Assembly: GCF_009833125.1 (NCBI RefSeq)
Contig: NZ_QRCC01000004.1
Coordinates: forward strand, 62,001-126,000
Length of the DNA: 64,000 bases
Origin: Nitrosomonas sp. HPC101
Lineage (GTDB): Bacteria > Pseudomonadota > Gammaproteobacteria > Burkholderiales > Nitrosomonadaceae
Reading direction: 5' to 3'
Positions 39,514 through 60,740 of the stretch are shown in pieces. Both the position numbers and the translations under genes were made by a program. How positions within the stretch are numbered: the stretch's first letter is position 1; each line of letters begins with the position of its first letter. The notes under the pieces are model-generated. The model did not search any database. It was given only the letters and a program-made list of their open reading frames with translations, and had not been told where the DNA came from.

Positions 39514-39939
39514 ATGAATACTGCCGAGCAATTGATACAAAATACCGGGAAGCGCTCAACTCCAGCGCGCAGTGCAGTTCTGGGTGTGTTGCTGAATGCC
39601 GAGGATGTGCTTTCCCATAGCGAAGTGTTGGAGCATCTGCAGCAACTTGGTGCATTTGACCGGGTTACCGTATACCGTGCATTGGACTGGCTGGTCACTC
39701 AGGGTCTAGTGCATAAGGTGGCGGGGGCCGGTCGAGCCTGGCGTTTTCAGGTTACACGCAGTGAATCCATGCACCGTCACGCCCACTTTCAGTGTCATCA
39801 CTGCCATAAAGTTTTCTGCCTTCCAGAAGTTCAGCCAGTTTTGCCAAAAGAGCTGCCTTCTAACTTCTCCATTGATTCCATCGAGCTCAACATCATGGGT
39901 ATCTGCGCTGATTGTGGTCGCGCCATGATGAGTCACTAA
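39514..39939 (+). CDS. zur: Fur-family metal regulator, probably Zur
   Basis: This is a 141-residue winged-helix repressor of the Fur superfamily with the recognition region FDRVTVYRALDWLVTQGLV. The C-terminal half carries the metal ligands: His87, His89 and His91 with Cys94 and Cys97 (HRHAHFQCHHC), and a second structural pair Cys131 and Cys134 (CADCG). Assignment to Zur rather than Fur rests on the adjacent downstream receptor with a histidine-rich loop and is an inference. Two Fur-type palindromes lie between the two genes. Confidence 0.72.
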   Translation: MNTAEQLIQNTGKRSTPARSAVLGVLLNAEDVLSHSEVLEHLQQLGAFDRVTVYRALDWLVTQGLVHKVAGAGRAWRFQVTRSESMHRHAHFQCHHCHKVFCLPEVQPVLPKELPSNFSIDSIELNIMGICADCGRAMMSH

Positions 39940-39954
39940 TATAGCGTGGTATAA

Positions 39955-40013
39955 ATTGCAACATAGTTGCATTTGAGTTGTTGCTGCATCTATAATTGCA
40001 ACAATATTGCGAT
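39955..40013 (+). promoter_or_regulatory. Two Fur/Zur-like operators 40 bp apart
   Basis: ATTGCAACATAGTTGCATT (39955-39973) and ATTGCAACAATATTGCGAT (39995-40013) are both 9-1-9 palindromes with 7 of 9 positions paired, and they share the left arm ATTGCAACA. Their centres (39964 and 40004) are exactly 40 bases apart, close to four helical turns, so dimers would sit on nearly the same face. They lie after the zur-like gene and before the TonB receptor gene. Binding by this regulator is an inference. Confidence 0.6.
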
Positions 40014-40191
40014 TGTAAGATTTTTGTCAGCACTTACTGACCAAACCATACATTTGCCTTAGATAGAGGTACGTGTGCAGTATTTTCTCCTCATTCTTTC
40101 CTTCTTGTTTGTGCGTGTCGTGATTCTTGCCTGGCATCAGCAGGCAATCAAGTACTGACATATAAAACGATACATAAAACCTGGAATATAA

Positions 40192-42297
40192 GTGAAAAAA
40201 CTGGAAACTTTGATCAGTCTGATAACTTTTGCGGGGTTATCGTCATATGTTTGCGCTCAGGAGGTCACAAACAATCCAGTTCATGCGTCTGAAGTAGCGG
40301 ATCGCATATCGTTTAAAAAATTGCTTAAACCCGTGATTGTGACGGCTGATCCTTTAAGTGGGGATCAGGCAGATATATCCCGGCCGGTATCGGTTCTACA
40401 GCGGAAGCAGATGCAAACACGCGATTTGCGCAATATTGGCGAAGCAGTTTCTCAGGAGCTGGGAGTCTCTTCCAGTGATTTTGGTCCGGCAGTTGGTCGT
40501 CCGATAATCCGTGGTCTGGGTGGGCCACGCGTACGGGTGCTGGAGGATGGTATCGGCACGATGGATGTTTCCACGCTCAGCCCCGATCACGCCGTAGCGA
40601 CAGAAGCATTGTTTGCCGATCAGGTTGAAATTTTTCGTGGATCCTCGGCTTTGCTTTATGGTTCCGGTGCCAGTGGTGGAGTGGTAAATATTGTTAATCA
40701 TCGAATACTCGAGCAGGTGCCTGATGAAGTTGGTGGCGATCTGTATGGCCATTACAACTCGGTTGCGGATGATTTTACCGGGGCATTTCGATTGAATGCA
40801 GGAGCAGGGCGTTTTGCCTGGCACTTGGATGGAATGAAGCGGCATACTGGGGATTATTCTATTCCTAGATATGCAGAAGTTAACCCGGAATCCGGCGCAA
40901 AAAAAGGTGTGCTTGAGAATAGCGATGTTCGGACAACAAATTTTTCCAGTGGCTTGTCTTATGTCGGCGAACGGGGATTCCTGGGGGTTGCAGTCAGTCG
41001 TTTTGTTAATAATTATGGTATTCCCGGACATGACCACGGCGACCACGGCGACCACGATCATGAGAGTGAGGGTGAGGGTGGAAAAGGAGTGAGGATCAGG
41101 CAAAAACAGACACGTTTCGATATTAAAGGTGCATTAAATCATCCTCTGCCTGGATTGCAGAAAATAAAAACCCGCTGGGGGTATAACAACCATACACATA
41201 AGGAATCGGAAGGTGATGAGGTTGGGACGTTACTGATGAATCGTGAATGGGAGGGCCGGGTTGAAATGCTGCATCAGCCGTTGGCCGGTTGGAAGGGCGT
41301 GCTGGGATTTCAGTATCAAAACCGGGATCTTGCCACCCTCGGAGAAGAAGCATTTGTTCCCAGTTCTCGAATGGATTCCCTGGGAGTATTCTTGCTGGAG
41401 AGGCAGGATGTCGGGCGCTGGCATTTTGAGATGAGTGGCCGTTTTGAGCATCAGCGGGCAAAGCGCAAGGATGACAGTTTCGAGACCAGCCATAATGCAT
41501 TCAGTATTTCCGGTGGAGTGATCCGAAAATTCGGAGACGGTTACTCTGTAGGTGGCGATATTTCTCGTACCGAACGTGCGCCGGCACTGGAGGAATTATT
41601 TTCCAACGGTGCGCATCTGGCTACTGGTACGTTTGAAAGAGGTGACACATCGCTTACTCGGGAGAAATCCAGTAACTTTGATTTATTTCTGCGTCAAAAA
41701 GGGGATAAGCTGGATTGGACTCTGAATCTGTTTGCCAAATTAGTCGATAATTTTATTTTTCAGCAAGAACTGGATTTGACGGGTGACGGCCTGCCAGATC
41801 GGGTCAATATAGAAGGCAGGCCAGATGAGGATGGGTATCTGTTGTTGAAGTACCGTCAAAAAAACGCAAATTTTCTGGGGGCGGAATTTGAAACAATTGC
41901 GCATTTGCTGAATGATCATCGCGGTAAGCTGGATCTGCGTTTATGGACTGATTATGTCCGCGGTCGGCTGTCGGCAGGTGGGTATTTGCCGCGCGTGACA
42001 CCGCTTCGTTTTGGAGGAGCGCTTGATTATGTTTATGGTCCATGGCAAGGTCGGGTTGATGTAATGCGGGTACATAAACAGACGGATATCGCTCCGCTGG
42101 AAACAGACACGGCCGGTTATACCATGTTGAATGTCCAACTGGATTACCGGTTTGACTGGGGAAGGATGAATTATAACTTGTTCGTACGGGGTGCCAATTT
42201 ACTGAATGAAGAGGCGAGACGCCATACCTCCTTTCTGAAGGATCGGGTGCCGTTGCCCGGACGCTCCGGTCTGGTGGGCGTGCGCATAAATTTTTAG
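40192..42297 (+). CDS. TonB-dependent outer-membrane receptor, ZnuD-like
   Basis: The 701-residue protein has a signal peptide (cleavage near YVCA-QE), a TonB-box-like VIVTA, a plug domain (about 60-170 with RPIIRGLGGPRVRVLEDG and YGSGASGGVVNIV), and a C-terminal barrel ending GVRINF. An extracellular loop at residues 280-290 reads HDHGDHGDHDH, a histidine/aspartate string seen in zinc receptors such as ZnuD. The start is GTG with a weak GGAA site. It sits downstream of a Zur-like gene and its putative operators. A copper or nickel substrate is the main alternative. Confidence 0.82.
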   Translation: MKKLETLISLITFAGLSSYVCAQEVTNNPVHASEVADRISFKKLLKPVIVTADPLSGDQADISRPVSVLQRKQMQTRDLRNIGEAVSQELGVSSSDFGPAVGRPIIRGLGGPRVRVLEDGIGTMDVSTLSPDHAVATEALFADQVEIFRGSSALLYGSGASGGVVNIVNHRILEQVPDEVGGDLYGHYNSVADDFTGAFRLNAGAGRFAWHLDGMKRHTGDYSIPRYAEVNPESGAKKGVLENSDVRTTNFSSGLSYVGERGFLGVAVSRFVNNYGIPGHDHGDHGDHDHESEGEGGKGVRIRQKQTRFDIKGALNHPLPGLQKIKTRWGYNNHTHKESEGDEVGTLLMNREWEGRVEMLHQPLAGWKGVLGFQYQNRDLATLGEEAFVPSSRMDSLGVFLLERQDVGRWHFEMSGRFEHQRAKRKDDSFETSHNAFSISGGVIRKFGDGYSVGGDISRTERAPALEELFSNGAHLATGTFERGDTSLTREKSSNFDLFLRQKGDKLDWTLNLFAKLVDNFIFQQELDLTGDGLPDRVNIEGRPDEDGYLLLKYRQKNANFLGAEFETIAHLLNDHRGKLDLRLWTDYVRGRLSAGGYLPRVTPLRFGGALDYVYGPWQGRVDVMRVHKQTDIAPLETDTAGYTMLNVQLDYRFDWGRMNYNLFVRGANLLNEEARRHTSFLKDRVPLPGRSGLVGVRINF

Positions 42298-42956: not shown

Positions 42957-43712
42957 GTGGGGTCGTCTTTGCATAACTGCGAAACATCCGGTCATTCCGT
43001 TGTCTTGCAACAACGATCCGATTGCACGACGTGCAGTTTTCGGGAGTTGTGCCTGCCGGTTGGGCTGACCGACGCAGAAATAGAGTATCTGGGTATTCTG
43101 ATCAACCATAAATTGAAGGTGCGGCGAGGTGAGTATTTGTCACATGCTGGATCTGATTTCAGAGCACTTTATGCAGTGAAAAACGGCTCCTTTAAAACTT
43201 GTGCTCTGAAGGCGGATGGACGCCAACAGGTGACTGGTTTTTATATGACAGGCGAGCTGCTGGGGCTGGATGCGATCAGCCCGGAGAAGCACACTTGTGA
43301 TGCAGTTGCACTGGTTGATAGTGAAGTTTGTGAAGTGCCCTTTAAAAAGCTTGAAGAGATTGGACGAAATATTCCTTCTTTGATGAGTCAGCTTCACAAG
43401 ATTATGAGCCGTGAAATTGTGCAGGACAGAGGCGTTATGATGCTGCTGGGCAGTATGCGGGCAGAAGAACGGCTGGCTGCTTTTTTGCTTAATCTGTCAA
43501 CCCGCTTGGCCAGGCGGGGATACTCACCCACAAATTTTATTTTGAGGGCAACAAGGGAAGATATTGGCAGTTATTTGGGACTCAAGCTGGAGACAGTCAG
43601 CCGATCCTTTTCCAAGTTGCAGGAGGAAGGTCTCATCACAGTTAATATCAAGCATGTCACATTGCATGATATTGACAAATTAAATCTCAGGATTGGTAAT
43701 TCAACAGTTTGA
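42957..43712 (+). CDS. fnr: FNR-type oxygen-sensing transcription regulator
   Basis: The 251-residue Crp/Fnr protein keeps all four ligands of the oxygen-labile 4Fe-4S cluster: Cys23, Cys26, Cys32 and Cys114. The cAMP-binding-like fold is followed by a winged helix with the recognition helix KLETVSRSF (Glu212, Ser215, Arg216), the same E..SR set used by E. coli FNR to read TTGAT. The translated frame starts at GTG 42957. A perfect FNR box is present at 2989-3002. No FNR site was found before this gene itself. Confidence 0.93.
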   Translation: MGSSLHNCETSGHSVVLQQRSDCTTCSFRELCLPVGLTDAEIEYLGILINHKLKVRRGEYLSHAGSDFRALYAVKNGSFKTCALKADGRQQVTGFYMTGELLGLDAISPEKHTCDAVALVDSEVCEVPFKKLEEIGRNIPSLMSQLHKIMSREIVQDRGVMMLLGSMRAEERLAAFLLNLSTRLARRGYSPTNFILRATREDIGSYLGLKLETVSRSFSKLQEEGLITVNIKHVTLHDIDKLNLRIGNSTV

Positions 43713-43929: not shown

Positions 43930-44685
43930 ATGTCAGTTACTATGCGGCAAATGTTGGAAGCGGGCGTTCATTTCGGCCATCAAACCCGTTTCTGGAACCC
44001 AAAAATGGCCCCATATATTTTTGGGCAGCGTAATAAAATTCATATCGTTAATCTTGAGCATACGCTTGTGATGTTCAGGGATGCGCTGGATTATGCCCGC
44101 AGGTTAACAGCAAACAAAGGGACAATTCTTTTTGTGGGAACCAAGCGCCAGGCGCGTGATATTGTCAAGGAGGAAGCAATCCGATGCGGTGCTCCTTATG
44201 TTAATCAACGCTGGTTGGGCGGGATGCTGACGAATTTTAAAACAATCAGACAATCGATTAAGCGCCTGCAGGATATGGAAAAAATGGTGCAGGACGGGAC
44301 ATTAAACAAACTGGTGAAAAAAGAGGCTCTTGATTTTCAGCGTGAACTGGAGAAGCTAAATAACAGTCTTGGTGGCATCAAGGAGATGAAAGGATTGCCG
44401 GATGCCATGTTTGTGATTGATGTGGGTTATCAGAAAGGTACGATCGTCGAAGCAACCAAACTGGGTATCCCGGTTGTGGGGGTGGTGGATACGAATCACA
44501 GCCCGGCAGGTATTCAGTATGTGATACCGGGAAATGATGATTCCAGTCAGGCCATACGGCTTTATGCGCGCGCCATGGCAGATGCCATCCTGGAAGGGCG
44601 CAATCAATCCATTCAGGAGATTGTCGAGATGGGTAAAACTGACAGCGAGATTCTGTCTGGTGAAGACCTGTCCGCAGATGCATAA
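43930..44685 (+). CDS. rpsB: 30S ribosomal protein S2
   Basis: S2 binds the head-body junction of the 30S subunit. The 251-residue protein starts [23 protein letters not shown] and includes [21 protein letters not shown] and [30 protein letters not shown] and the late [14 protein letters not shown] are also present, all standard. An AAGGAGAATT site precedes the ATG. It is first in the block rpsB-tsf-pyrH-frr-uppS-cdsA-dxr-rseP-bamA. Confidence 0.98.
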
Positions 44686-44757
44686 ATGATCTTCGTCATC
44701 CTCCCTTGGTAAAAGAGATTATTCAAAGTTTTTGTATTAATTGGATTCGGAGTCAGA

Positions 44758-45642
44758 ATGGCAGAGATTACTGCAAGCATGGTTAAAGAATTGCGCGAGC
44801 TTACGGGCTTGGGCATGATGGAGTGTAAAAAAGCATTGTCTGAGGCCGATGGGGACATGAAAGCTGCTGAGGATTTGCTGCGGATCAGAAGTGGAGCCAA
44901 GGCAAGTAAAGCGGCTGGCCGTATTGCTGCGGAAGGTGTCATTAGCGGGTTTGTTACTGCTGATGGTAAACGAGGGGGCATAGTGGAGGTCAACTGTGAA
45001 ACCGATTTTGTTGCCAAGAATGAAGATTTCATCCATTTTGCCAGCAATCTGGCGAAGTTATTGGTGAATCAGAACCCGCCGGATACAGCATCATTGGCTG
45101 AAATGCCTTTGGCTGACGGAGAGACGGTGGAATCTGTTCGCAAGGCTTTGATTATGAAACTGGGTGAAAATATCAGTATTCGCCGTGGCATGAGCTATCA
45201 GGCTAAAGGTCGTCTCGCAATGTACCTGCATGGAAGCAGGATTGGCGTGATGGTTGATTACTCGGGAGGAGACGAAGCACTGGGTAAGGATCTGGCTATG
45301 CATATTGCGGCCAGCAAGCCTGTTTGTGTATCGAGTGTACAAGTACCTGCTGATCTACTTGAGCGCGAGCGTCAGATATTCGCTGCTCAGGCGGCAGAAA
45401 GTGGTAAACCAGCCAATATAATTGAGAAAATGGTGGAAGGGCGAATCGCCAAATATCTGGCAGAAGTTACCTTGTTAGGTCAGCCTTTTGTTAAGGATCC
45501 TGAGCAGACTGTTGAGAAATTGTTAAAAGCACAGTCTGCCGAAGTCAGTAGCTTCGCGTTGTATGTTGTAGGTGAGGGTATCGAGAAGAAGTCTGATGAT
45601 TTTGTGGCTGAAGTTATGGCCCAAGTTAACCAATCAAAATAA
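44758..45642 (+). CDS. tsf: Elongation factor Ts
   Basis: EF-Ts exchanges GDP for GTP on EF-Tu. The 294-residue protein has an N-terminal UBA-like domain ([24 protein letters not shown]) with the conserved TGxGMMxCK, the core [10 protein letters not shown] that inserts into EF-Tu, and the C-terminal coiled-coil region. It follows rpsB after 72 bases with a GGAGTC site. Confidence 0.98.
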
Positions 45643-45779
45643 AAATAATTAGTTTGACCAGCTGCGATAGGGAAAATAACAAGATGGCGATCCCAGTTGG
45701 AATGGTTGTTGATAAAGTATAGATGCGACACGTTAATTCTCAGGAAGACTTTAGATAATTCTCTATTACACGGGCATAT

Positions 45780-46493
45780 ATGCCAACTGTCTATAAACGT
45801 ATTCTACTGAAATTGTCGGGCGAAGCTCTTATGGGTGACGCGCAGTATGGTATTGACCGTACAGTGATTGAACGCATTGTAGTCGAGGTTGCCGGAGTAC
45901 TGCAGTTGGGTGTTGAAGTTGCAATTGTAGTAGGCGGGGGTAATATTTTCCGTGGCATGAAATCTGCGGGAGATGGCATGGATCGTGTAACGGCCGATTA
46001 TATGGGAATGCTTGCTACCACGATGAATGCTTTGGCATTACACGATGCGATGAGACGGAATGGAGTTATCTCACGCGTACAATCCGCTTTGCGGATAGAC
46101 CAGGTTGTGGAACCTTATATCCGTGGCAAGGCTTTGCGCTATCTGGACGAACGTAAGGTGGTTATATTTGCTGCAGGAACCGGTAATCCCTTTTTTACCA
46201 CGGATACAGCGGCTGCTTTGCGTGGTATGGAAATAAATGCCAGCATAGTCCTTAAGGGGACCAAAGTAGATGGGATTTATACCAGTGATCCTTTTAAAAA
46301 CAAGGATGCGCAACGTTTTCGCAGCCTGACTTTTGATGAGGCGATTAATAAAAACCTTCAGGTAATGGATGCTACTGCACTGACTTTGTGTCGTGATCAG
46401 AAACTTCCTATCAACGTATTCAGTATTTTCAAGACCGGGGCACTCAAACGAGTTATCATGGGTGAAGATGAAGGAACCTCAGTAATTATCTGA
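45780..46493 (+). CDS. pyrH: UMP kinase
   Basis: PyrH phosphorylates UMP to UDP and is an amino-acid-kinase-fold hexamer controlled by GTP and UTP. The 237-residue protein starts [18 protein letters not shown] and has the nucleotide loops [10 protein letters not shown] and the UMP/ATP regions [38 protein letters not shown] follows. It supplies UDP downstream of PyrD and PyrE, which are encoded elsewhere in the window. Confidence 0.98.
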
Positions 46494-46600
46494 ATTTCTG
46501 GGTATTCTCTAAAATGTTGTGCTTCCACGTAATATATAGAAGAGCATATATAATATATATTGTTATAGCTGCTTTTCAATATCAATAAATTTACTTAAAT

Positions 46601-47158
46601 ATGATTGCTGATGTAAAAAAATCTTCTGAACAGAAAATGCAAAAAAGCCTGGAGGCACTTAAAGTTGATTTCAGCAAGGTAAGAAGCGGGCGCCCACATG
46701 CAGGGCTGCTGGATCATATAACAGTTGATTACTATGGAACACCAACACCGATCCGGCAGCTTGCGAATGTAACTTTGGCGGATGCGCGTACCATAGGGGT
46801 TATACCATGGGATAAAAAAGCATTTTCAGCGATTGAAAAAGCGATACGGGATTCCGATATGGGCTTGAATCCGATGACTGCAGGCGAAATGGTGAGGGTG
46901 CCTATGCCGCCTTTAACAGAAGAAAGACGCAAGGATTTGACCAAGATTGTTAGAGCGGAAGCGGAAACAACTCGTATTGCAATGAGAAATATCCGGCGTG
47001 ATGCTAACTCCCAGTTAAAAGAATTGTTGAAGGATAAATTGATCGCAGAGGATGAGGATCGTCGTGCGCAAGATGATATTCAGAAACTGACAGATCGCTA
47101 TATTGTCGAGGTAGATAAATTGCTGCAAACTAAAGAAGCGGAATTGATGGCTGTCTGA
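46601..47158 (+). CDS. frr: Ribosome recycling factor
   Basis: RRF splits post-termination ribosomes with EF-G. The 185-residue protein has the three-helix bundle and hinge typical of the family: [43 protein letters not shown], and [22 protein letters not shown]. It ends 3 bases before uppS. Confidence 0.98.
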
Positions 47159-47161
47159 TAT

Positions 47162-47965
47162 ATGCCCCTAACGCCAAGTTCAACACGTGAAATACCGGAA
47201 ACCGAGGCGATACCTAAGCATATTGCTATTATCATGGACGGCAACGGTCGATGGGCGAAGCAGCGTTATTTGCCGCGAATAGCAGGACATACACAGGGTG
47301 TTGAAGCAGTGCGGGGTACGATCAAGGCCTGTATTGAAAGAGGTGTTTCACACCTGACAATTTTTGCATTTAGTAGTGAAAACTGGCGCAGGCCTGCAGA
47401 AGAAATCAGGTTGTTAATGCAATTGTTTCTCGCTGCGCTTGAGCGGGAGATCACCAGCTTGCATGAAAATGGAGTTCGCTTCAGGGTGATTGGAGATCTT
47501 ACAAAATTTGATCCTAAAATCATTGATTGCGTTCGGCATGGTGAAGCACTTACTGCCAGTAATACTCGTTTGTATCTCACGGTGGCTGCAAATTACGGGG
47601 GACGTTGGGATATCATGCAGGCTATACGTAAAATGATTGCGGAAAATCCGGATTCAGCTGTGAATTTTGATGAATCTGATATTGCCAGTCACTTGACAAT
47701 GGCTGATGCTCCTGAGCCGGATTTGTTTATCCGTACAGGAGGCGAATGCCGGATCAGTAATTTCCTGCTTTGGCAGCTTGCATATACTGAATTATATTTT
47801 ACCGACACCCTGTGGCCGGATTTCAATGCATCAACGCTTGACGAGGCTATCCGTTCCTACCAGAAACGTGAGCGCCGATTTGGTCGAACAAGTGAGCAGC
47901 TTGAAAAACAACAGGAAAGACAGCAGGAAATCAGGAATACGATCTTGAGCAAAAACAAGATTTAG
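47162..47965 (+). CDS. uppS: Undecaprenyl diphosphate synthase
   Basis: UppS condenses IPP units onto FPP to make the C55 lipid carrier used for peptidoglycan and surface polysaccharides. The 267-residue protein carries the catalytic [23 protein letters not shown], and [25 protein letters not shown]. It supplies undecaprenyl phosphate for MurNAc and for the WecA-like transferase at 59135-60679. It is followed by cdsA after 32 bases. Confidence 0.97.
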
Positions 47966-47997
47966 TTATCATTATCAATTAGCGGGATTCCCCGTTC

Positions 47998-48825
47998 ATG
48001 CTGAGTACCCGACTTTTTACTGCACTCGTACTATTGACCGCCTTTCTGGCGGCATTATTTTATTTGCCGGATATTTTTTGGGCTGCATTGCTCCTGGGGT
48101 TAACTGTTACAGCTGCCAGGGAGTGGAGTCGTCTGGGGTGTTTTTCTGTTGGCCAGACTGTGTTTTACATGATTTTTACTACCTTGCTAGGAGGAGAGTT
48201 ATTATTTCTGACCAGCATGGTTGTATCCAGCAACCCGGCAGATTCATCGATGGCCGGGTTTTATGTCGCATCTGCTATTTTTTGGCTGCTGGTGGCACCT
48301 TTTCAGTTGGCAACAGCTCGGCCCATTCGCAACGTATGGGTACTCATGTTAATCGGCTGGTTGATATTGCTGCCAGCCTGCCTGTCGCTTTATCAGCTTC
48401 GTGCAATAAATCCATTGCTGTTACTCGGATTCATGGGAGTGGTGTGGGTATCTGACAGTGCTGCCTATTTTGTCGGGCGCGCTTATGGAAAACATAAACT
48501 TGCTCCCCGGATTAGTCCGGGAAAGACATGGGAGGGGGTGGCCGCTGCGTTGGTGGCTGTATTGATTTATACATTGATCTGGCTTTTTGCGGTAAATAGG
48601 GAGCACGAACTGATTGGCTGGCTGATTCCCTTGTTGCTCGTGCTTATGGCGCTGGGAATAGTGGGGGATCTGTTTGAATCACTCTTGAAACGACAGGCAG
48701 GCCTCAAGGATAGTGGCAGTATTTTGCCAGGTCATGGTGGGATACTGGACCGTATCGATGCGTTGCTCCCGGTTTTGCCCATTGCGACTTTGTCAGCCAT
48801 CTTATTTTATTCAACTGAATCATGA
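47998..48825 (+). CDS. cdsA: Phosphatidate cytidylyltransferase
   Basis: CdsA makes CDP-diacylglycerol, the branch point of phospholipid synthesis, in the inner membrane. The 275-residue protein has several membrane helices and the C-terminal signature spread over [47 protein letters not shown]. It overlaps dxr by 4 bases. Confidence 0.97.
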
Positions 48826-50057
48826 CTAAAATCCGTCATCTGACCATATTGGGTTCAACTGGCAGCATCGGTGAAAGCACGCTGGATGTAGTGGCCAGAC
48901 ATCCCGATCGGTTTCAGGTGGTTGCCCTGACCGCTAACAAAAATGTTGAGAAGCTGTTTGAGCTGTGCAAACAGTTTCGTCCATCGTATGCTGTGATGCT
49001 CAATGCCCAGAGTGCCGAGCGTCTGGAAGATAAATTGCGGACAACAGATGTGGGTGCCAAGGTGCTTTCAGGTATCGAATCACTGGAGAAGGTAGCATCC
49101 CTGCCAGAAATCGATACGGTCGTAGCAGCCATTGTTGGTGCGGCAGGTATTCGTCCAACACTCTCGTCCGCGCGGGCGGGCAAGCATATTCTTCTGGCCA
49201 ACAAGGAAACGCTGGTGATGGCCGGGCGTATCTTTATGGATACGGTCAGGCAACATCGTGCAACGCTGTTACCGGTGGACAGTGAACACAATGCGATTTT
49301 TCAGTCTTTGCCGCAATGTTTTAATGGAGATCTGGCGGGATCGGGCGTGCGACGAATACTGTTGACCGCTTCGGGCGGACCTTTCCGTAAGATGGATCTG
49401 GAAATGTTGGAAACGGTGACGCCAGAACAGGCTTGTGCCCATCCCAACTGGGTGATGGGCAAAAAAATATCGGTTGACTCGGCTACCATGATGAACAAGG
49501 GACTGGAAGTCATTGAGGCACACTGGTTGTTTAATGTAGCACCTGAAAAAATCCAGGTGGTTGTCCATCCACAAAGTGTTATCCATTCTATGGTTGAATA
49601 TATTGATGGTTCGGTGCTTGCCCAACTCGGCAATCCGGATATGCGCACGCCAATAGCGCATGCATTGGGTTATCCCGAAAGAATGGAAAGTGGTGTGCAG
49701 TCCATGGATATCTTTAAAATTGCACAGTTGAATTTTGAAGCCCCGGATTTCAAGCGTTTTCCCTGTCTCAGGCTTGCGTATGAAGCGCTTTCCAAGGGGG
49801 GGAATATGCCGGCTGTACTGAATGCTGCCAATGAGGTTGCGGTTGAAGTTTTTCTGACGGGAAAAATACCTTTCACAGCGATCCCCGCAGTCATCGAACA
49901 TACAATGGAATCAATAGACGGACAGGAAATGGTCGACCTGGACGATGTGCTCAAAGCTGATTCGCTGGCGCGTGAGATAGCACGCAAATGGCTGGATAAT
50001 CAGGATTGGCAAGAACAACCAAAGGGTGTTGCTATTTTGCGTCGGGCAGTGGAATAG
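48822..50057 (+). CDS. dxr: 1-deoxy-D-xylulose 5-phosphate reductoisomerase
   Basis: Dxr is the committed step of the MEP isoprenoid pathway that feeds UppS. The 411-residue protein has the NADPH loop [25 protein letters not shown], the metal-binding and substrate region [23 protein letters not shown], and [31 protein letters not shown]. Cotranslation with cdsA is implied by the ATGA overlap. Confidence 0.98.
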
Positions 50058-50078
50058 ATCATTTTGTAGATTTCTGAC

Positions 50079-51446
50079 ATGACATTGTTCTCAACCATTT
50101 TTGCATTCGTCATCGCACTGGGTCTGCTGATCACTTTTCACGAATTTGGTCATTATCTGGTTGCCCGCTGGTGCGGAGTCAAGGTGTTACGTTTTTCTCT
50201 CGGATTTGGCCGGCCGCTGCTCAAAAAACGCATTGGGAGTGATCAGACGGAATGGATGGTCGCCGCAATTCCGCTGGGGGGGTATGTCAAGATGCTGGAT
50301 GAGCGTGAAGGACCGGTTCCCGCTGACGAACTTTCGCGTGCCTTTAATCGGCAATCGGTTTCCAGACGTCTTGCCATCGTGATTGCAGGCCCGGCTGCCA
50401 ATTTTTTACTGGCCATTTTGCTGTATTGGTTACTTTTTATATCTGGCGTCAGTGGCGTAAAGCCAATCGTGGGAGAAATTGAACCCGCAACACTTGCGGC
50501 TTCGGCAGGATTCAGAAACGGGGATATGATTACCGGCATCGGTGATCGGGCAATTACCACCTGGCAGGAAGCCCGGTTGCTATTACTGGATAATGCGGCA
50601 GACAGAAATCCAGATGTTAGGATAACGGTGACGGGTGAAAGTGGAGTTTCTCGCCAACTCAGGCTGAATTTGAGCAGTCTTGGGGCAGAAGATCTTGAAG
50701 GCAATTTTCTGAAAGGGATGGGGCTGAGCATCTATCGACCCATTATTGTCCCAATTATTGATCAAGTAATGACTGGAGGAGCAGCGGAACACGCGGGTAT
50801 CAAGACTGGCGACAGGATTGTAGCGATTAATGGGAAGGAAGTCTCCGTTTGGGAAGATGTGGTCGATGTGGTGCGTTCAAGTCCCGGGCATACACTTTCG
50901 GTTGACGTGATGCGGGATGGTCGGGAGCTTGTCGTGTCACTACAACCGGAAATTGTATCCGAGGAGCACACTGAAATTGGCAGAGCTGGAATTACGCCTA
51001 GAATTCAGCATGAGATACTGGAAAATCTGCTGGTGAAGAACAGCTATCCTCCGTTGGCTGCTCTGGTTAAGGCTGTTACTAAGACTTGGGAAATGTCTTC
51101 TTTTACTGTGCGCATGTTGGGAAAAATGATCACGGGTGATGTTTCGCTGAAAAACGTCAGCGGACCGATTACCATCGCGAATTATGCCGGCCAGTCGGCC
51201 CAAATGGGGTTCGCTGCCTACCTGGGATTCCTGGCCCTGATCAGTATTAGTCTCGGTGTGTTAAATCTTCTGCCGATTCCAGTGCTGGATGGTGGACACC
51301 TGATGTATTACTTGATCGAAATGGTACGAGGTGTCCCACTATCCGAAAAAATCATGTATGTCGGTAATCAGATTGGTATGATCTTGCTGATCATGCTGAT
51401 GGTGTTCGCAATACATAACGATCTACTTCGTCTGGCTGCTGAGTAG
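50079..51446 (+). CDS. rseP: Site-2 protease RseP
   Basis: RseP cleaves anti-sigma factor RseA within the membrane and removes leftover signal peptides. The 455-residue protein has the zinc site [11 protein letters not shown] near residue 22. Two PDZ domains follow (about 120-200 and 210-290), and [17 protein letters not shown] carries the third metal ligand near residue 400. It precedes bamA by 2 bases, the common order. Confidence 0.97.
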
Positions 51447-51448
51447 AC

Positions 51449-53725
51449 ATGAAATTCAGGTTTTCTGTATTATTTTTTTTCCTGTATTCAATAGGTTGTG
51501 TGGCAAGTGATTCATTTGTGGTCAGAGATATACGAGTGGAAGGTATTCAGCGTACCGAGGCTGGAACAATATTCAGTTATCTGCCGGTTAAAGTTGGTGA
51601 TGTGCTCGACAGTCAAAAAGCCAGTGCAGCAATCAAGGCATTGTATGCCACAGGATTCTTCAGTGATGTCAAGCTGAAATCTGAAGGTGAGTTGTTGATC
51701 GTGCAGGTTCAGGAGCGTCCAGCGATTGCACAAATCGGCATCAACGGCGCAAAAGAGTTTGATAAGGATAAGCTCAAGGAAGGCCTGAAACAGGCTGGTT
51801 TGGCAGAATCTCGTATTTTCAGCCGCTCACTGCTGGAAAAGGCTGAACAGGAATTAAAGCGCCAATATATCAGTCGCGGTAAGTACGCAGTCAGAATCAC
51901 CACGACCACTACTCCACTGGAGCGTAACCGTATCGGTATCAATTTTGATATCAAGGAGGGTAAGACTGCTCGTATCAAACAAATCAATATTGTTGGCAAC
52001 CATGTTTTTCCTGAAGATGATCTGGTCGATCTGTTCAGTCTCAAAACACCGGGTTTTCTGACCTGGTTCACCAAGGACGATCAGTATTCAAAGCAGAAAT
52101 TATCGGCAGATCTTGAAACACTGCGCTCCTATTATCTTGATCGAGGATATCTTGAGTTCAATATCGAATCCACTCAGGTTTCGATCACACCGGATATGAA
52201 GGATATCTACATTACGATCAATGTAACGGAAGGTCCTCAATACACGGTATCCGATATCAAGCTTGCTGGCGAGTTGCTCGTGCCGGAGGAAGAGTTGCGT
52301 AAGCTGATCAAACTCGAACCAGGTGGAATATTTGTACGTGAGAAGCTGACCGAATCGATCAAGCTGATCAGCGACAGATTAGGGAATGATGGTTATGCAT
52401 TTGCCAATGTCAATGCCTCACCGGAACTGGACAAGGAAACCCGTAAGACAGCCTTTACTTTTTTTATCGACCCGGGGCGTCGGATTTATGTCAGGCGTAT
52501 CAATATCAGTGGCAATGAACGTACCCGAGATGAGGTGATCCGTCGTGAATTCCGGCAGATGGAAGGGGGATGGCACTCAACCGAACAGATCAACCGTTCC
52601 CGTCAAAGGGTGGACAAACTCGATTACTTTACCAGCGTGAATGTTGAAACGCCTCCGGTGGCAGATGTTCCGGATCAGGTGGATATCAACGTCAATGTGG
52701 TTGAGAAGCCGACCGGAGCGATTATGTTTGGTGCAGGCTACTCTGATCGCGAAGGGATTATTCTGAATGGATCGATTGCTCAGAACAATATTCTGGGAAC
52801 GGGTAACTTTTTAAGCTTGCAAGTCAATACCGGTAGCGTTAATAAAGTTATTTCGGCTTCATTCCGAAATCCTTACTATACGATTAATGGCATAAGTCTC
52901 GGTCTGGAAGCATTCAAACGCGATATCAACACCCGCTCCCTGAGTGCAGTGGGAGTGTTCAATACCGATACAACGGGTGCCAATATACGGTTTGGTATTC
53001 CTGTTGCAGAGAATGATATCGTTTCACTAGGGCTGGGTTATGAGCACACCAAAATCGATCTGCGTGATGACAGTCCGCAACGTTACAAGGATTTCGTCAG
53101 TCAATTTGGCAAGACTTCCAATAATCTTCCAATTACCCTGAGCTGGGCGCGTGACCGCCGTGACAGCGCCATCTGGACGACATCCGGGATGACACAACGT
53201 CTGTTCGGAGAATTCAGTATGCCGTTTGGTGATCTGAATTATTACAAGGTCAGTTACGAGCATCGTTGGTTCCTTCCGGTCTCTAAAATGTTCACCTTGA
53301 TGCTGAATGGTGAGGTGGGTGTTGGAGATGGCTATTCTGACAAGCCGCTTCCCTTCTTCAAAAATTTCTTTGCAGGGGGGTTCAACTCTGTTCGTGGATA
53401 CAATATCAATACATTGGGGCCACGTGACAGTGACGGCCGGGTGCTGGGCGGTAGCAAGCGAATTGTGGGAAATATCGAGGTATTGTTCCCGGTACCGTTT
53501 ATGAAGGAAGATAAATCAATGCGTCTGAGCGCATTCGCGGATGGAGGTACAATCATTAATTCATTTTCCGGACTGGGATTGGATGACTTTCGTTATTCCG
53601 CCGGGTTGGCTGCAACCTGGATTTCTCCGATGGGACCGCTGAAATTCAGTGTCGCCCAGCCACTTAATGATAAATCGGGTGACAAGATACAACGTTTTCA
53701 GTTCCAGTTTGGACAGACTTTCTAA
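51449..53725 (+). CDS. bamA: Outer-membrane assembly factor BamA
   Basis: BamA is the core of the complex that inserts beta-barrels. The 758-residue protein has a signal peptide, five POTRA domains (residues 24-420, each with the glycine-rich turn and a [26 protein letters not shown]-like helix-strand), and a 16-strand barrel. The barrel contains the conserved VRGY ([16 protein letters not shown]) and ends in QFQFGQTF, with the terminal Phe. Its substrates include the barrels at 3079 and 40192. Confidence 0.98.
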
Positions 53726-53778
53726 ATCCGAAAATGGTCTTAGAAGAAAATGCAAGATACATTGGATAATTCAGTTAG

Positions 53779-54309
53779 ATGACTGCTGCCCGATTTGTGA
53801 AGAGATTCATTATTCTAGTAGCCTTTGTTTTGTCGCCTTGTTTACTGGCTGGGGAGATCAAGATCGGAGTTGTCAATACCGAGAAAATTTTGCGAGAATC
53901 AATGCCTGCGGTAGCTGCTCAAAGAAAGATTGAAAATGAATTTCAAACACGTGATGCGAAAATAAAAGAATTTTCTGTACAGATTAGGACTTTACAGCGG
54001 GAGCTGGAAAAAGGGACAAATCTTGTGAGTGAAGAAGAACGGCGCATGAAGGAGCGCGAACTGGCTGGACTCAGCCGACGTTACCAGCGCGCTCAGCAGC
54101 AGATGCGAGAAGATTTGAGTTTACGCCAGAATGAAGAGTACGGTCTGATTTTGGAACGTACCAATAGGGTGATCGGAGAACTTGCAGAGCAACAGGATTA
54201 TGACTTGATCCTGCAACTGCAGGATTCGGTCTATCGAAGTGCGCGTATTGATATTACTGATCAGGTTATCAGGGCATTGAACGCACAGGAATCAGCTTCC
54301 GAAAAATAG
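53779..54309 (+). CDS. skp: Periplasmic chaperone Skp/OmpH
   Basis: Skp is a trimeric chaperone that holds outer-membrane proteins during transit. The 176-residue protein has a signal peptide ending near LLAGE and a body KIGVVNTEKILRESMPA. It ends in a long charged coiled coil (about 60-150, QIRTLQRELEKG onward), the tentacle helices. In most proteobacteria lpxD follows skp, but here fabZ follows after 39 bases. Confidence 0.94.
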   Translation: MTAARFVKRFIILVAFVLSPCLLAGEIKIGVVNTEKILRESMPAVAAQRKIENEFQTRDAKIKEFSVQIRTLQRELEKGTNLVSEEERRMKERELAGLSRRYQRAQQQMREDLSLRQNEEYGLILERTNRVIGELAEQQDYDLILQLQDSVYRSARIDITDQVIRALNAQESASEK

Positions 54310-54348
54310 TAATTAATAGTTTTTGTATAACAGAGAGACAGAACGGCC

Positions 54349-54786
54349 GTGATGGATATCCATGAAATACTGAAATACCTGCCGCATCGTTATCCGTTGA
54401 TTCTGGTTGATCGGGTAGTTGCACTTGAAATAAACAAACGGATTCATGCCTATAAAAATGTTTCCATCAATGAACCCTATTTTTCCGGACATTTTCCGCA
54501 TCATCCGGTCATGCCTGGCGTACTGATCGTTGAAGCGTTGGCACAGGCTGCTGCGCTGTTGACTATCAAATCTGAAAATATGGAGAAAGATACCGGGAAG
54601 GTATATTATTTTGTCGGTATCGATGCTGTACGATTCAAGAAGCCAGTCATCGCGGGTGATCAGTTGGTATTGAAGGTGGAGATTACCCGTCATGTCAAAG
54701 GCATCTGGAAATATACCGCTTGTGCAGAAGTGGATGACCGGCTGGTTACCGAAGCCCAGCTGATGTGTACTGCTCGAGCCATCTGA
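54349..54786 (+). CDS. fabZ: 3-hydroxyacyl-[acyl-carrier-protein] dehydratase FabZ
   Basis: FabZ dehydrates beta-hydroxyacyl-ACP in fatty-acid elongation. The 145-residue hot-dog protein has [13 protein letters not shown] and [22 protein letters not shown] with the catalytic His and Glu. The frame starts GTG at 54349; the ATG at 54352 ([11 protein letters not shown]) is a likely real start. It stands without lpxA and lpxB, the usual downstream pair, and overlaps rnhB. Confidence 0.97.
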
Positions 54787-55427
54787 TTCAGTTGGCTGGG
54801 AATCCGGAGATCACACCTTTTGATCCCATACGGGAATGGATTCGTCCGGAGGGAAAAGTTATCTGTGGTGTGGATGAAGCTGGAAGAGGGCCGCTGGCCG
54901 GCCCGGTCTATGCTGCATGTGTAGTGCTGGATTCCGGCTACGTTATCAATGGGCTGGCGGATTCCAAACAGTTGAGTGAAAAAAAGCGAATCACTCTGGC
55001 CAATCAGATCAAGCAACATGCTCGTGCATGGGCGATTGCTTCAGCTTCGGTAGAGGAGATAGATCGCCTGAACATTCTGCAAGCCAGTCTGCTTGCGATG
55101 CAAAGAGCCGTAGCCAGCCTGCTGCCGATCTCTAACGTATTGATTCTGGTGGATGGTAATCATATACTGCGGCTGGATGATGAAGTTCAAGCAATTATCA
55201 GGGGGGACCGTCTGGTAGCCGAAATTTCGGCAGCCTCAATTCTTGCTAAAACTGCACGGGATGCTGAAATGCTGCGGCTGCATGCAGTTTATCCAGCCTA
55301 CGGTTTCAACCGACACAAGGGTTATCCCACCAAGGCTCACTTGGAAGCGATTCGTTTACATGGCATAACCGCTATTCATCGCAGGAGCTTCGCGCCATGT
55401 GCCGAACGATCCCGATCGGGAGCCTGA
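54765..55427 (+). CDS. rnhB: Ribonuclease HII
   Basis: RNase HII removes RNA from RNA-DNA hybrids and single ribonucleotides in DNA. The 220-residue protein carries the DEAGRG motif in [34 protein letters not shown], and [13 protein letters not shown]. The translated frame starts at GTG 54765 inside fabZ; the TTG at 54792 is an alternative. The overlap implies coupling. In E. coli lpxB precedes it; here fabZ does. Confidence 0.96.
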
Positions 55428-55474
55428 ACAATGAGTTTTATCAACCACAAGGAAGCCTGACTCAGGCAGAAAAC

Positions 55475-55954
55475 ATGCGCATAGTAAAAAATATGGTGGT
55501 ATCACTCCACTATAAAATGACTGACCAGGAAGGAAATTTGATGGAAGAAACGGATGAACCCATCAGCTACCTGCATGGTGGTTATGACGGAATATTTCCA
55601 TTAGTGGAAGAGGCGCTGCATGAAAAGGAAACCGGCGCAACCTTATCCCTGCAAATGGAACCCGATGATGCCTTTGGTGAATACGATGAGGAGCTGATGC
55701 GGGTCGAGCCACGTAGCGCATTCCCGGAGGAAGTCGCAGTCGGGATGCAGTTTGAGGGAGGCGAAGAAGATTCTGATGATTTTTGTATTTATACCGTAAG
55801 GGAGATCACGGGTGATGTCGTGGTGGTGGACGGTAATCACCCGTACGCCGGTATAACATTTCAGTTTGAATGTACGGTAACGGAAGTACGTCCGGCTACG
55901 GCTGAAGAATTGTCTCACGGGCATGTGCATGGACCGCACGGACATGAGCATTGA
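55475..55954 (+). CDS. SlyD-like FKBP peptidyl-prolyl isomerase
   Basis: This is a cytoplasmic proline isomerase with chaperone activity. The start at 55475 (MRIVKNMVVSLHYKMTDQEG) is preferred; the open frame from 55397 overlaps rnhB and is unlike homologues. The 159-residue protein has the FKBP part, the inserted flap domain (about 70-125), and a short histidine-rich tail GHVHGPHGHEH that may bind nickel or zinc. It converges on mutS with a 0-base gap. Confidence 0.92.
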   Translation: MRIVKNMVVSLHYKMTDQEGNLMEETDEPISYLHGGYDGIFPLVEEALHEKETGATLSLQMEPDDAFGEYDEELMRVEPRSAFPEEVAVGMQFEGGEEDSDDFCIYTVREITGDVVVVDGNHPYAGITFQFECTVTEVRPATAEELSHGHVHGPHGHEH

Positions 55955-58576
55955 TCAACTCGTTTGATTGAGCATCGATTTGAGCAGATAAAGTTGTTCC
56001 AATGCATCCCGTGGGGTCAGTTCGTCAGGCCGAACCCGCTCAAGGTAAGCGAGTACCGGGTGTATGGAAGCAGGAGCAGCTGCCTCGTTTTCTCTGATTA
56101 TTTCAAATAAAGTCTGCTGAGGGCTTTGGCCGGGTGTTTCCTGCTCCAGCTCCGCCAGAATTTTTGCGGCATTCCGGATAACTTTATCGGGTACGCCTGC
56201 CAGCGCGGCAACATGCAGTCCATAACTGCGGCTGGCAGGCCCTTCTTCTATCCGGTGAAGGAAGACAATATGCCTTTTGTGTTCTACTGCAGTGACGTGG
56301 ATGTTGGCTGCCTGCGGAAATATTTCTGCCAGCCGGGTCAGTTCAAAATAGTGGGTAGCAAACAAGGTATAGCCCTGGTTCTGGGTCAGCAGGTGGCGAG
56401 CTATGGCAAAAGCCAGTGCAAGTCCATCAAACGTTGAAGTTCCCCGGCCAATTTCATCAACCAGAACCAGGCTTTGTGCGGTTGCGTTACGTAAGATACT
56501 GGCAGCTTCCGTCATTTCCACCATGAAAGTGGAACGCCCGCCCGCCAGGTCATCCGCTGCACCAATCCGGGTAAAAATCTGGTCGACTGGCCCAATCCGG
56601 GTATTTTCAGCCGGGACAAAACTACCGCAATGTGCCAGAAGGACGATCAGCGCTGTCTGTCTCATATAAGTGGATTTGCCACCCATATTCGGTCCGGTGA
56701 TGATCAGCATTTGCCGTCCTTCCCGCGTGACAGCGCCAAGCTGTACGTCATTGGTGATGTAGTGCTCCACCTGATTTTCCACTACAGGGTGCCGACCGGC
56801 TTCGATGACCAGAACCGGATCATCAGTGAATACCGGTTTGGTATAACCAAATAAATCTGCGTGTCTGGCAAAAGCGCACAGGGTGTCCAGTTCAGCAACA
56901 GAGCGGGCGATTGTCTGTAAGGGGATAATGAAATCAGCCAGTTGCTCCAGTAATTGCTCGTACAGCGCTTTCTCCCGAGCCAATGCCTGCTCGCGTGCGG
57001 TCAGTGTCTTGTGTTCGAATGCCTGTAACTCTGGAATGACGTAGCGTTCTGCATTTTTCAAAGTTTGTCTGCGACGGTAGTCCGATGGGATTTTCTCGCC
57101 ATGGGTACGGGTTACTTCGATATAAAAACCATGTACCCGATTGTATTCCACTTTGAGATTGGGAATACCGGTACGCTCGCGTTCCCGTGTTTCCAGTTGC
57201 AGCAGGAATTCGCCACAATTTTTCTGCAAAGCGCGTAGTTCGTCCAGCTCGGCATCATAGTCATCGGCGATTACACCTCCTTCACGGATCACTGTGCCGG
57301 GCATCGGTTGCAAGGCGCGAACGAGTAATTGCGTGGGTGTGGTATCCGGCGCTATACCCGGAATAAAGCGATGAACAGATGTGGCCGTCGAAGTTGAGAT
57401 CAGTTTGATAACTTCCGGGAGGGCTGTCAGACTGTCGCGCAAACCGGATAGATCGCGAGGTCTGGCCGTTCTTAAAGCAATCCGGCTGGTGATGCGCTCG
57501 ATATCGGCAATATGTTTAAACTGTTCCCGAATGTCCGCATAGAGGGGTTCCGGTTTTGTCTCAATCAAGTCAGAAATGGTATCTAGCCGTTGCTGCAAGG
57601 TGATGCGGTTACGCAACGGATGATGTAGCCAGTGCCGTAGCAACCTGCTACCCATGCTGGTTGAGCAGGTGTCCATCAGAGATGATAATGTGGGCGTATC
57701 TTCACCACGCAATGTCAACGTAATTTCCAGATTGCGGCGGGTGGTAGCATCCATACGCAAATAGGTTTCTGGTCGTTCCACTTGTAATGTGTGCAGATGG
57801 CCAAGCCGCTGTTCCGCTGACTCATCTGCTGCGGTTTGCTGTGTCAGCCTGATGTATCCAAATAACGCACCGGCTGCCATGATTGCGGCATGCAGCTCCT
57901 CGCAACCAAACGCATGCAGATCACGGGTGCCAAATTGCCGGGTAAGCTGCTGCATGGCGTGCTCATAATCGAATTGCCAGTCCGGTAGGCGTTTGGATGC
58001 AGCGCAACTGTTTAATGCCATCGGCAGATCAAGTGATTCCGGCAACAGAATTTCTGCTGGATGCAAGCGTTCCAGCTCACCTGCCAGATTATCCGGAGCG
58101 GTTTCCAGTACACGCATATCCCCGGCTGCCAGGTTGAGCCAGGCCAGACCGATTACACCGTGATGCAGTGCCAGCGTGAGTACAACACTGTTGTTGCGCT
58201 CATCCAGCAGTCCGGCATCGGTCAGGGTACCAGGGGTAATGATGCGGACAACCTGACGTTCTACCGGCCCCTTGCTGGCGGCGGGATCGCCGATCTGTTC
58301 ACAAATAGCGATAGATTCCCCCAGTTTCACCAATCTGACCAGGTATTGATCGGCAGCGTGGAACGGTACACCTGCCATTTTGATGGGATCCCCGGCAGAA
58401 GATCCGCGGTGAGTCAGAGTAATATCCAGCAACCTGGCTGCTTTTTCAGCATCTTCATAAAACAGCTCATAAAAGTCGCCCATGCGATAAAACAGCAACT
58501 TGTCGTCATGCTGCGCTTTGATACGCAGGTACTGCTGCATCATGGGTGTGTGCGAAGAAAGATCTATTTCATTCAT
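55955..58576 (-). CDS. mutS: DNA mismatch repair protein MutS
   Basis: MutS recognises base mismatches and recruits MutL. The 873-residue protein has the mismatch-contact motif [15 protein letters not shown] (Phe-x-Glu) near residue 36, the connector and lever domains, and the C-terminal ATPase with [22 protein letters not shown] and [20 protein letters not shown]. The ATG at 58576 ([11 protein letters not shown]) is used; the frame's first codon at 58585 is TTG. It converges directly on the SlyD-like gene. Confidence 0.97.
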
Positions 58577-59134
58577 ATGAATCAATTAATTCGTCCCCCA
58601 TGAAAACCGCCTGCTGCTTGCTATTTTTTTGGAGGAGACGAATCGAATTTTCTTGTTGTGTATGAAAATCAACCTGCACGGACAGGGAGTTTTATCAGGA
58701 AATGGGGTGATTAATGTATTTTCCATATGGGAAAACAGTTCCCAAAATGGCCAGCAGCCATTATTTCAGATTTCAGGAGCAAGCAATATCAGAAGGTTGA
58801 TGTGATTACCGACTGTACCTTTCAGGTAATTTTTGCCGTGTGGTAATCCGATTTCATATGACTAATGAGTTCGATCGCAGCACATTTTTTATCTCGCCGG
58901 TAGCGATTGTCCTGTTTGAGCAAGCCCACATGGTCGCAACTATGTTTTGTGGGTGATCCAGCTGGATGAGGCTTGTTGCTAATCAGAAAGAATTATAAAT
59001 TTGGCTGTCGAACTCGGGAAGATTATCAATGTATCCAGTCTATTGCCGCCCGGTTTTAAATTTTTCTCAAGTTTAATTTCCTGCTCTTTGGGGGTGAAAG
59101 CTGATTGAAAGTCATCAGATCATCAGGTTTTTTA
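58577..59134. other. Intergenic region between mutS and the exopolysaccharide locus
   Basis: These 558 bases contain no supported ORF. Short palindromes are present: TTTTCC (58719-58724) / GGAAAA (58730-58735), AATGGC (58746-58751) / GCCATT (58757-58762), and TACC (58816-58819) / GGTA (58825-58828) followed by ATTTTT, a weak terminator-like site on the plus strand. The mutS promoter lies at its left end. Confidence 0.6.
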
Positions 59135-60679: not shown

Positions 60680-60740
60680 AGGCTCGTTGTCTCATATCCG
60701 GTTAATTGATAGGGGAAGGTCGGGGCTGTATTCCTGCTTA

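Follow-up and report, generated by a model that had tools for sequence, protein, structure and literature searches.

The window analysed here is a stretch of 64,000 nucleotides from Nitrosomonas sp. HPC101 (contig NZ_QRCC01000004.1, positions 62,001 to 126,000). Between positions 39,514 and 42,297 it carries the gene of a Fur-family regulator, two palindromic boxes and the gene of a TonB-dependent outer-membrane receptor (Table 1). An earlier note on this DNA had described these elements as a zinc-uptake module, and our results support that description: the regulator is very probably a zinc-responsive repressor of the Zur type that acts on the ZnuD-like receptor gene via the two boxes. Support comes from the gene neighbourhood, compared with random stretches, from the recurrence of the box, compared with control palindromes, and from the zinc ligands of the receptor. 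Because of this gene company and these ligands we take zinc to be the probable effector; repression and occupancy by two dimers are likewise predicted from the sequences.

Table 1. Features of the regulator and receptor locus, in window coordinates
Feature	Position	Strand	Basis
Fur-family regulator, Zur-type, 141 aa	39514..39939	+	PF01475, PDB profile matches, conservation in 109 homologues
Box 1, TGCAACATAGTTGCA, perfect 6-3-6 palindrome, putative upstream operator	39957..39971	no strand	same place kept in sister loci L013-L015
TATAAT hexamer abutting box 2, probably the receptor gene's -10 element	39991..39996	+	sequence letters; same hexamer directly 5′ of box 2 in 3/3 sister loci L013-L015
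Box 2, TGCAACAATATTGCG, 2 mismatches to the 6-3-6 consensus	39997..40011	no strand	over the presumed transcription start
ZnuD-like TonB-dependent outer-membrane receptor, 701 aa, GTG start	40192..42297	+	NF038289, Pfam plug and barrel, 4rdr, ligands
GACCACGGC repeat, coding for part of the His-rich loop HDHGDHGDHDH	41032..41056	+	2.8 copies, Tandem Repeats Finder

The note had pointed to two palindromes of 9-1-9 form with the same left arm, centred exactly 40 bp apart, and both observations were confirmed: ATTGCAACATAGTTGCATT lies at 39955-39973 and ATTGCAACAATATTGCGAT at 39995-40013, with centres at 39964 and 40004. Both palindromes are imperfect, as 7 of 9 arm positions pair when counted from the letters. 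The 9-1-9 pattern had four matches (two places, both strands) compared to a shuffle mean of 0.15, and none of 100 shuffles reached four, a figure that is a rough measure only because the pattern was fitted to these two sites. The 6-3-6 box TGCAAC-N3-GTTGCA is a better description, and box 1 is its sole exact copy in the 2.5 Mb genome. In the sister loci L013-L015 the box at the place of box 2 has at most one mismatch.

The position of the boxes relative to promoter-like hexamers was checked in the loci of the family. A TATAAT-like hexamer (at least 5 of 6 letters) starts no more than 20 bases before each of the 25 boxes upstream of the regulator, in 22 cases at 9 or 6 bases, whereas random positions pass this test in 9% of cases and positions between -150 and -60 in 14%. 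The spacing is far less regular for the 24 boxes between regulator and receptor. A repressor bound to boxes placed after such hexamers would cover the transcription start.

To follow the box beyond this genome we used several samples. The family search covered 125 genomes, with matches in 110, and 78 of the 125 were read, by score, as carrying an orthologue of the regulator. The set of named loci comprises the best 80 out of 392 confirmed ones, retrieved by means of the peptide patterns DRVT[VL]YR[VA]L and H[AG]HF[QKH]CxxC; their genera include Cupriavidus, Thauera, Azoarcus, Nitrosospira, Nitrotoga and Methylobacillus as well as some Gammaproteobacteria (Thiothrix, Contendobacter). A profile search over 399 genomes of the order gave matches in 156 at E 1e-10, the weaker of which may be other Fur-family branches; 40 order loci were found by profile alone and overlap partly with the 80 named loci.

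Near the regulator, which here means from 300 bp before to 400 bp after it, the box was found with at most one mismatch in 53 of the 80 named loci and exactly in 19. The classic Zur box TGTTATNNNATAACA, which belongs to canonical Zur, and five control palindromes were found there in none of the 80, so that chance palindromes could be ruled out. Close box pairs are spaced by 36-40 bp in 10 of 12 cases among the named loci and in 3 of 3 among the family loci, a count that takes at most one mismatch per box and thus leaves the window's own pair outside owing to box 2. Judged from these loci, the pairing is no accident of this genome. Exact boxes occurred in 83 of the 125 family genomes compared to 17 for the reversed control (counted from the table), and among the matches listed most places are at the regulator locus. 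A class-wide scan found the exact box in 47 of 369 genomes.

The box also stands before other genes. For instance, in genome G008 a perfect copy lies 43 bp upstream of a ZIP zinc-transporter gene (PF02535, E 4.7e-35). The earlier note had held that its reading would be refuted by absence of the motif near other zinc genes. Such absence is true of the window's genome, where znuCBA has the classic box, and untrue of relatives, where the motif occurs at or near ZIP, COG0523, znuCBA and ZnuD-like genes. Perfect boxes were also seen 38 bp (L057, G008) and 32 bp (L059, G005) upstream of a frame for 3-deoxy-D-arabino-heptulosonate 7-phosphate (DAHP) synthase in genus g2, an assignment for which Pfam was run on the L057 protein alone. 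DAHP synthase is a possible further target of the regulator in that genus.

The gene neighbourhood supports the link to zinc. A ZnuD-like receptor follows the regulator in all 30 fetched family loci (L012-L041, window included). Moreover, a ZnuB, ZIP, COG0523 or ZnuD-like gene, sought by tblastn with reference proteins at one common threshold, lies near the regulator in 68 of the 80 named and 27 of the 40 order loci, compared to 1 of 20 random stretches of like size taken at round coordinates from genomes of the order. In the named loci the four markers were found 12 (ZnuB), 18 (ZIP), 40 (COG0523) and 25 (ZnuD) times. In 22 of the 30 family loci a short open frame of roughly 110-135 aa, whose N-terminus is hydrophobic and which contains a C-x-x-C motif, is placed between regulator and receptor (e.g. 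L071:3275-3604 and L072:4582-4989); the window's clade does not have it, and two examples run against Pfam gave no match. The regulator very probably belongs to a widespread, mainly betaproteobacterial branch of Zur whose box and predicted sensor site differ from those of textbook Zur. Two metagenome-assembled genomes, labelled Moraxellaceae (L265) and Nanopelagicaceae (L230), carry a locus of the betaproteobacterial type. L265 groups with Nitrosospira in the regulator tree, and both contigs are probably misbinned.

The receptor has the plug and barrel of TonB-dependent proteins (PF07715 and PF00593), and its best solved relative is ZnuD of Neisseria meningitidis (4rdr, E 3.6e-67). Its best NCBIfam match is also ZnuD (NF038289), at 436 bits and in this respect unlike the family model, whose cut-off is 950; this shortfall was not taken to exclude homology because the model is of the kind 'exception'. 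Residues D132, H133, E338 and H475 are the counterparts of the buried zinc ligands Asp, His100, Glu340 and His499 of ZnuD and are kept in 24 of 24 full-length receptors. These are the window's receptor and 23 distinct others, taken from open frames of 580-850 aa by BLAST at E 1e-40 with more than 500 aligned residues. The buried site is named in PMC4557270, where the part of the text available prints the first ligand as D90, whereas the alignment with 4rdr puts an Asp beside His100. The substrate is probably zinc.

The His-rich loop, in which the earlier note saw a mark of the receptor, proved less telling. HDHGDHGDHDH does stand at residues 280-290 and is encoded in part by 2.8 perfect copies of GACCACGGC, and a His/Asp-rich loop 3 lies at the same place in meningococcal ZnuD as far as described in the available part of PMC4557270, but it is not the conserved part of the receptor. 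The loop was found in 3 of the 24 receptors: that of the window, that of the N. europaea-type locus (L121:5516-7666, G014), where it is a long run of His-Asp dipeptides, and in part that of G032. As the other 21 do not have it, the loop was ruled out as the defining zinc feature. It looks like a variable ornament built from a fast-changing repeat, which may add zinc-catching capacity.

The regulator has the Fur-family fold (PF01475, E 7.9e-12) and matches E. coli Zur, and also Fur and PerR, in profile searches of the PDB. We compared it in 109 homologues (the window, 28 family and 80 named loci); L015, whose regulator is broken, was left out of the alignment, and alignment A1 holds 23 family loci, with further family loci dropped. 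The structural Cys4 site C94/C97/C131/C134 is invariant (109/109), and so are H89, H91 and C102, while 105 of the homologues have H35. A pattern containing H89 and H91 served in part to collect the named set, and this favours both residues. Among the 40 order loci found by profile, 38 retain H-x-H-F plus a Cys at position 102, as judged by eye, the exceptions being L183 and L195.

The sensor ligands of E. coli Zur we take to be His77, Cys88, His96 and Glu111, and these numbers agree with the chain. H67, the counterpart of His77, is kept in 89 of the 109 homologues and H87, the counterpart of His96, in 74. C102 sits at an acidic residue (Glu) of B. cereus Fur in the HMMER alignment and pairs with Glu111 of E. 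coli Zur without gaps or with Cys113 when HMMER places a gap. In the ungapped alignment it stands where all 11 canonical Zurs of the family have Glu, and in these the columns 35, 89 and 91 hold Ala, Pro/Arg/Gln and Phe/Leu, respectively. H35, H89, H91 and C102 are likely the sensor residues of this regulator, unlike those of canonical Zur. In G032 (L015 and L120) the regulator is split across different frames, with both boxes and the receptor still in place; this may be an assembly error or a real loss.

The genome carries four Fur-family genes, and a canonical Zur with a perfect classic box just upstream is among them (G000:C11). In the surrounding cluster at 44000-62500 (L117), zur is accompanied by two COG0523-type GTPase genes and by znuCBA, where the second perfect classic box lies; znuA is the member of znuCBA that was run against a family, the other znu names being our reading, and one COG0523-type gene was run against NCBIfam. 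Further frames read like zinc-sparing paralogues of threonyl-tRNA synthetase, HisI, QueD, gamma carbonic anhydrase and dihydroorotase. The window's regulator as the only Zur of the genome was thus ruled out. The two Zurs share about 29% identity, and the window's regulator is like both this protein and E. coli Zur (4mtd) in the Fur fold, the Cys4 site and the company of zinc genes, but differs from both in its sensor residues and its DNA box. No box of the new type was found in the 18.5 kb cluster at up to one mismatch. Since this second Zur has its own classic boxes, the regulon of the window's regulator is probably a single operon in this genome.

The canonical Zur scored 82.5 bits against the NCBIfam Zur model, also below the cut-off of 167. 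Its highest identity to another canonical Zur of the family is 41%, and no good canonical Zur match was obtained in the window's three nearest relatives (21.9 bits in G014, none in G032 and G048), so that the canonical cluster may have been acquired. At the canonical-type loci of the family, the classic box was found at up to one mismatch in 3 of 10 (L124, L125 and L127), and in none of the 10 was the new box found. ZnuD-like receptors adjoin canonical zur in G036 (by BLAST) and, on the basis of cut frames judged by eye, also in G115 and G029, indicating that related receptors have changed their regulator.

Several observations weigh against the reading of a Zur-type regulator with its own box. 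The regulator reached 45.8 bits against the NCBIfam Zur model (cut-off 167) and scored highest in NCBIfam with a Bacillus-type Fur model (49.3 bits, cut-off 220); in profile comparison, Fur and Zur structures tie at 53.5 bits each. The sensor cysteine of E. coli-type Zur is missing, as no conserved Cys was found in the Cys88 region of the 109 homologues. Regarding the box, box 2 departs from the consensus at two positions, 27 of the 80 named loci have no box near the regulator at up to one mismatch, and this genome holds no other intergenic copy at that threshold. The eight one-mismatch places elsewhere in the genome are all within open frames, so that a wider regulon here is unsupported at one mismatch. 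At up to two mismatches there are 139 places compared to 64 for the reversed control; a looser pattern gave five further places, with no zinc gene around the two whose surroundings were inspected. The znuCBA genes of this genome have the classic box, not the new one. None of the four zinc markers was found in 12 of the 80 named and 13 of the 40 order loci, and L164 and L165, with genes for cation diffusion facilitator (CDF) and nickel/cobalt (NiCoT) transporters, and L218, with CDF genes, have no zinc-marker neighbours. In favour of the reading, the two regulator types tend to exclude each other in the 125 family genomes: 16 carry both, 62 the window type alone, 31 the canonical type alone and 16 neither (Fisher p 5e-7), although the test ignores shared ancestry and regulator type was assigned by score.

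The box alone cannot name the metal, because it also fits the Nur-box tTGCaa-N5-ttGCAA proposed for the nickel regulator of Streptomyces in the available text of PMC3919588: box 1, read as TTGCAA-N5-TTGCAT, agrees with it at 11 of 12 letters by our own count, a further point on the opposing side. A Nur-like regulator of nickel (or cobalt), with a receptor importing nickel useful for urease, would also suit proposed sensor residues that are mostly His with one Cys, and the regulator has NiCoT-like genes nearby in 3 of the 40 order loci and 2 of the 80 named ones, two sets that overlap. This is nevertheless unlikely, as zinc markers are far commoner (68/80 and 27/40) and the receptor retains the zinc ligands of ZnuD. 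In addition, chain 3eyy, presumably Streptomyces Nur, is a weaker relative of the regulator than E. coli Zur (34.3 vs 53.5 bits).

Another alternative is an iron or peroxide regulator of the Fur or PerR type that controls a haem or siderophore receptor. The His positions fit the metal site of Fur in the HMMER alignments, the top NCBIfam match is the Fur model, if below its cut-off, and the receptor weakly matches TonB haem families of NCBIfam too. The AlphaFold model of the regulator (mean predicted local distance difference test score 81.7) matched Fur, PerR and Zur structures in Foldseek, with PerR first, and this search gave no separation of Zur from Fur or PerR. On the other hand, the position that is acidic in B. 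cereus Fur is an invariant Cys (109/109), the neighbours are zinc genes, and the genome has another gene read as Fur, by its best PF01475 score, as well as a PerR-like one. NE1722 of Nitrosomonas europaea did not act as Fur in E. coli either, according to the part of Vajrala et al. 2011 (PMC3050691) available, and we regard an iron or peroxide role as very improbable. It is harder still to credit that the receptor is controlled by the genome's canonical Zur and that the adjoining regulator is a remnant. That canonical Zur is present with perfect boxes elsewhere, and the regulator is broken in 1 of 4 genomes of the clade (G032). Yet the regulator frame in the window is intact, the intergenic region has no classic-box site at up to two mismatches among the matches listed and none in the letters, and G014, G032 and G048 keep both new boxes without a good canonical Zur match.

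Part of what we describe was already known. As far as the text of Rodionov et al. 2004 (PMC545781) was available, a Zur_D box, ATGCAACNNNGTTGCAT, was predicted upstream of znuABC-zur operons in two Desulfovibrio genomes, with one site each, and Zur_D itself was termed only weakly similar to known Zur. Box 1 agrees with it at 13 of 14 fixed positions by our own count, a comparison of boxes and not of proteins. The suggestion of the earlier note that the operator is a lineage-specific motif therefore holds in that it differs from the classic box, but many betaproteobacterial lineages have it with this regulator and it was already predicted in Desulfovibrio. NE1722 is the orthologue of the window's regulator, and both published primers for its polymerase chain reaction match the sister locus L013 (G014) exactly. 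Vajrala et al. placed NE1722 with Zur proteins in their tree; the available part of that paper reports no boxes, receptor link or zinc test for it.

Betaproteobacterial Zur regulons are under study, as seen in the available parts of a review (PMC6103462) and of an RNA-seq paper on Burkholderia cenocepacia. The targets that the review lists for Zur (FurC) of Cupriavidus metallidurans are similar to the COG0523 and ZnuD-like neighbours found here, and in other Cupriavidus species the window-type regulator stands beside such genes. By analogy, the Zurs of C. metallidurans and B. cenocepacia would belong to the same subtype. In the literature searched, so far as its text was available, we did not meet the shared box across lineages, the paired spacing, the distinct sensor residues or a genome holding two Zur types, each with a box of its own. 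The palindrome was found as a Zur site in PMC545781 alone; we make no claim that the betaproteobacterial box is unpublished, RegPrecise having been outside the search.

For a zinc-responsive repressor acting through this box we propose the following mechanism. With ample zinc, a zinc-loaded dimer would bind the two 6-3-6 boxes, which lie ahead of and across the receptor gene's core promoter. Two dimers would probably sit about four helical turns apart on the same DNA face and block transcription of the receptor. During zinc shortage the dimer would leave and the ZnuD-like receptor would be made. It would capture extracellular zinc, with the His-rich loop assisting in this clade, and pass it inward with energy from TonB. 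This one operon would be the probable whole regulon, while the canonical Zur with its classic boxes would run znuCBA and its neighbours.

More tentatively, and doubting it slightly more than we believe it, we suggest that this branch of regulators is a second class of zinc sensors within the Fur superfamily that evolved separately, in which a Fur/PerR-type site has exchanged its acidic ligand for Cys and the operator is its own and often paired about 39 bp apart. Some ammonia oxidisers that have canonical Zur too would then run two circuits, and related receptors would have switched regulator and box. This regulon would escape annotation that relies on the classic box and on Zur models of the E. 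coli type, and a defined box with defined sensor residues makes such zinc regulons searchable. How two zinc circuits share their tasks could be studied, as a natural experiment, in the 16 of 125 family genomes that have both regulators, and the ligand exchange suggests a testable route from a Fur/PerR-type site to a zinc site.

In a tree of 50 regulators the window's clade joins Methylobacillus, Nitrotoga and Sulfuriferula (98/88) and stands away from the remaining Nitrosomonadaceae (99/98), so that the regulator gene has probably been exchanged between lineages; the tree holds selected rows, and its long root branches make the deeper joins unsafe. Among the loci compared, the nearest relatives of the receptor outside the clade are from Nitrosomonadaceae, at about 45% identity. 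As the relatives of regulator and receptor differ, the two genes may have different histories. At L164 and L165 a regulator of the window type sits between NiCoT-like and CDF transporter genes. CDF and NiCoT neighbours suggest export of nickel, cobalt or zinc, and a switch of the metal from zinc to nickel or cobalt is possible at these two loci.

A search of plasmids gave 97 records, 92 of them from Klebsiella, with about 30% identity among the matches listed, and was not used. Downstream of the receptor, the window holds a gene for an Fnr-type regulator at 42957-43712 (226.6 bits, cut-off 228), which adjoins a small cytochrome c.

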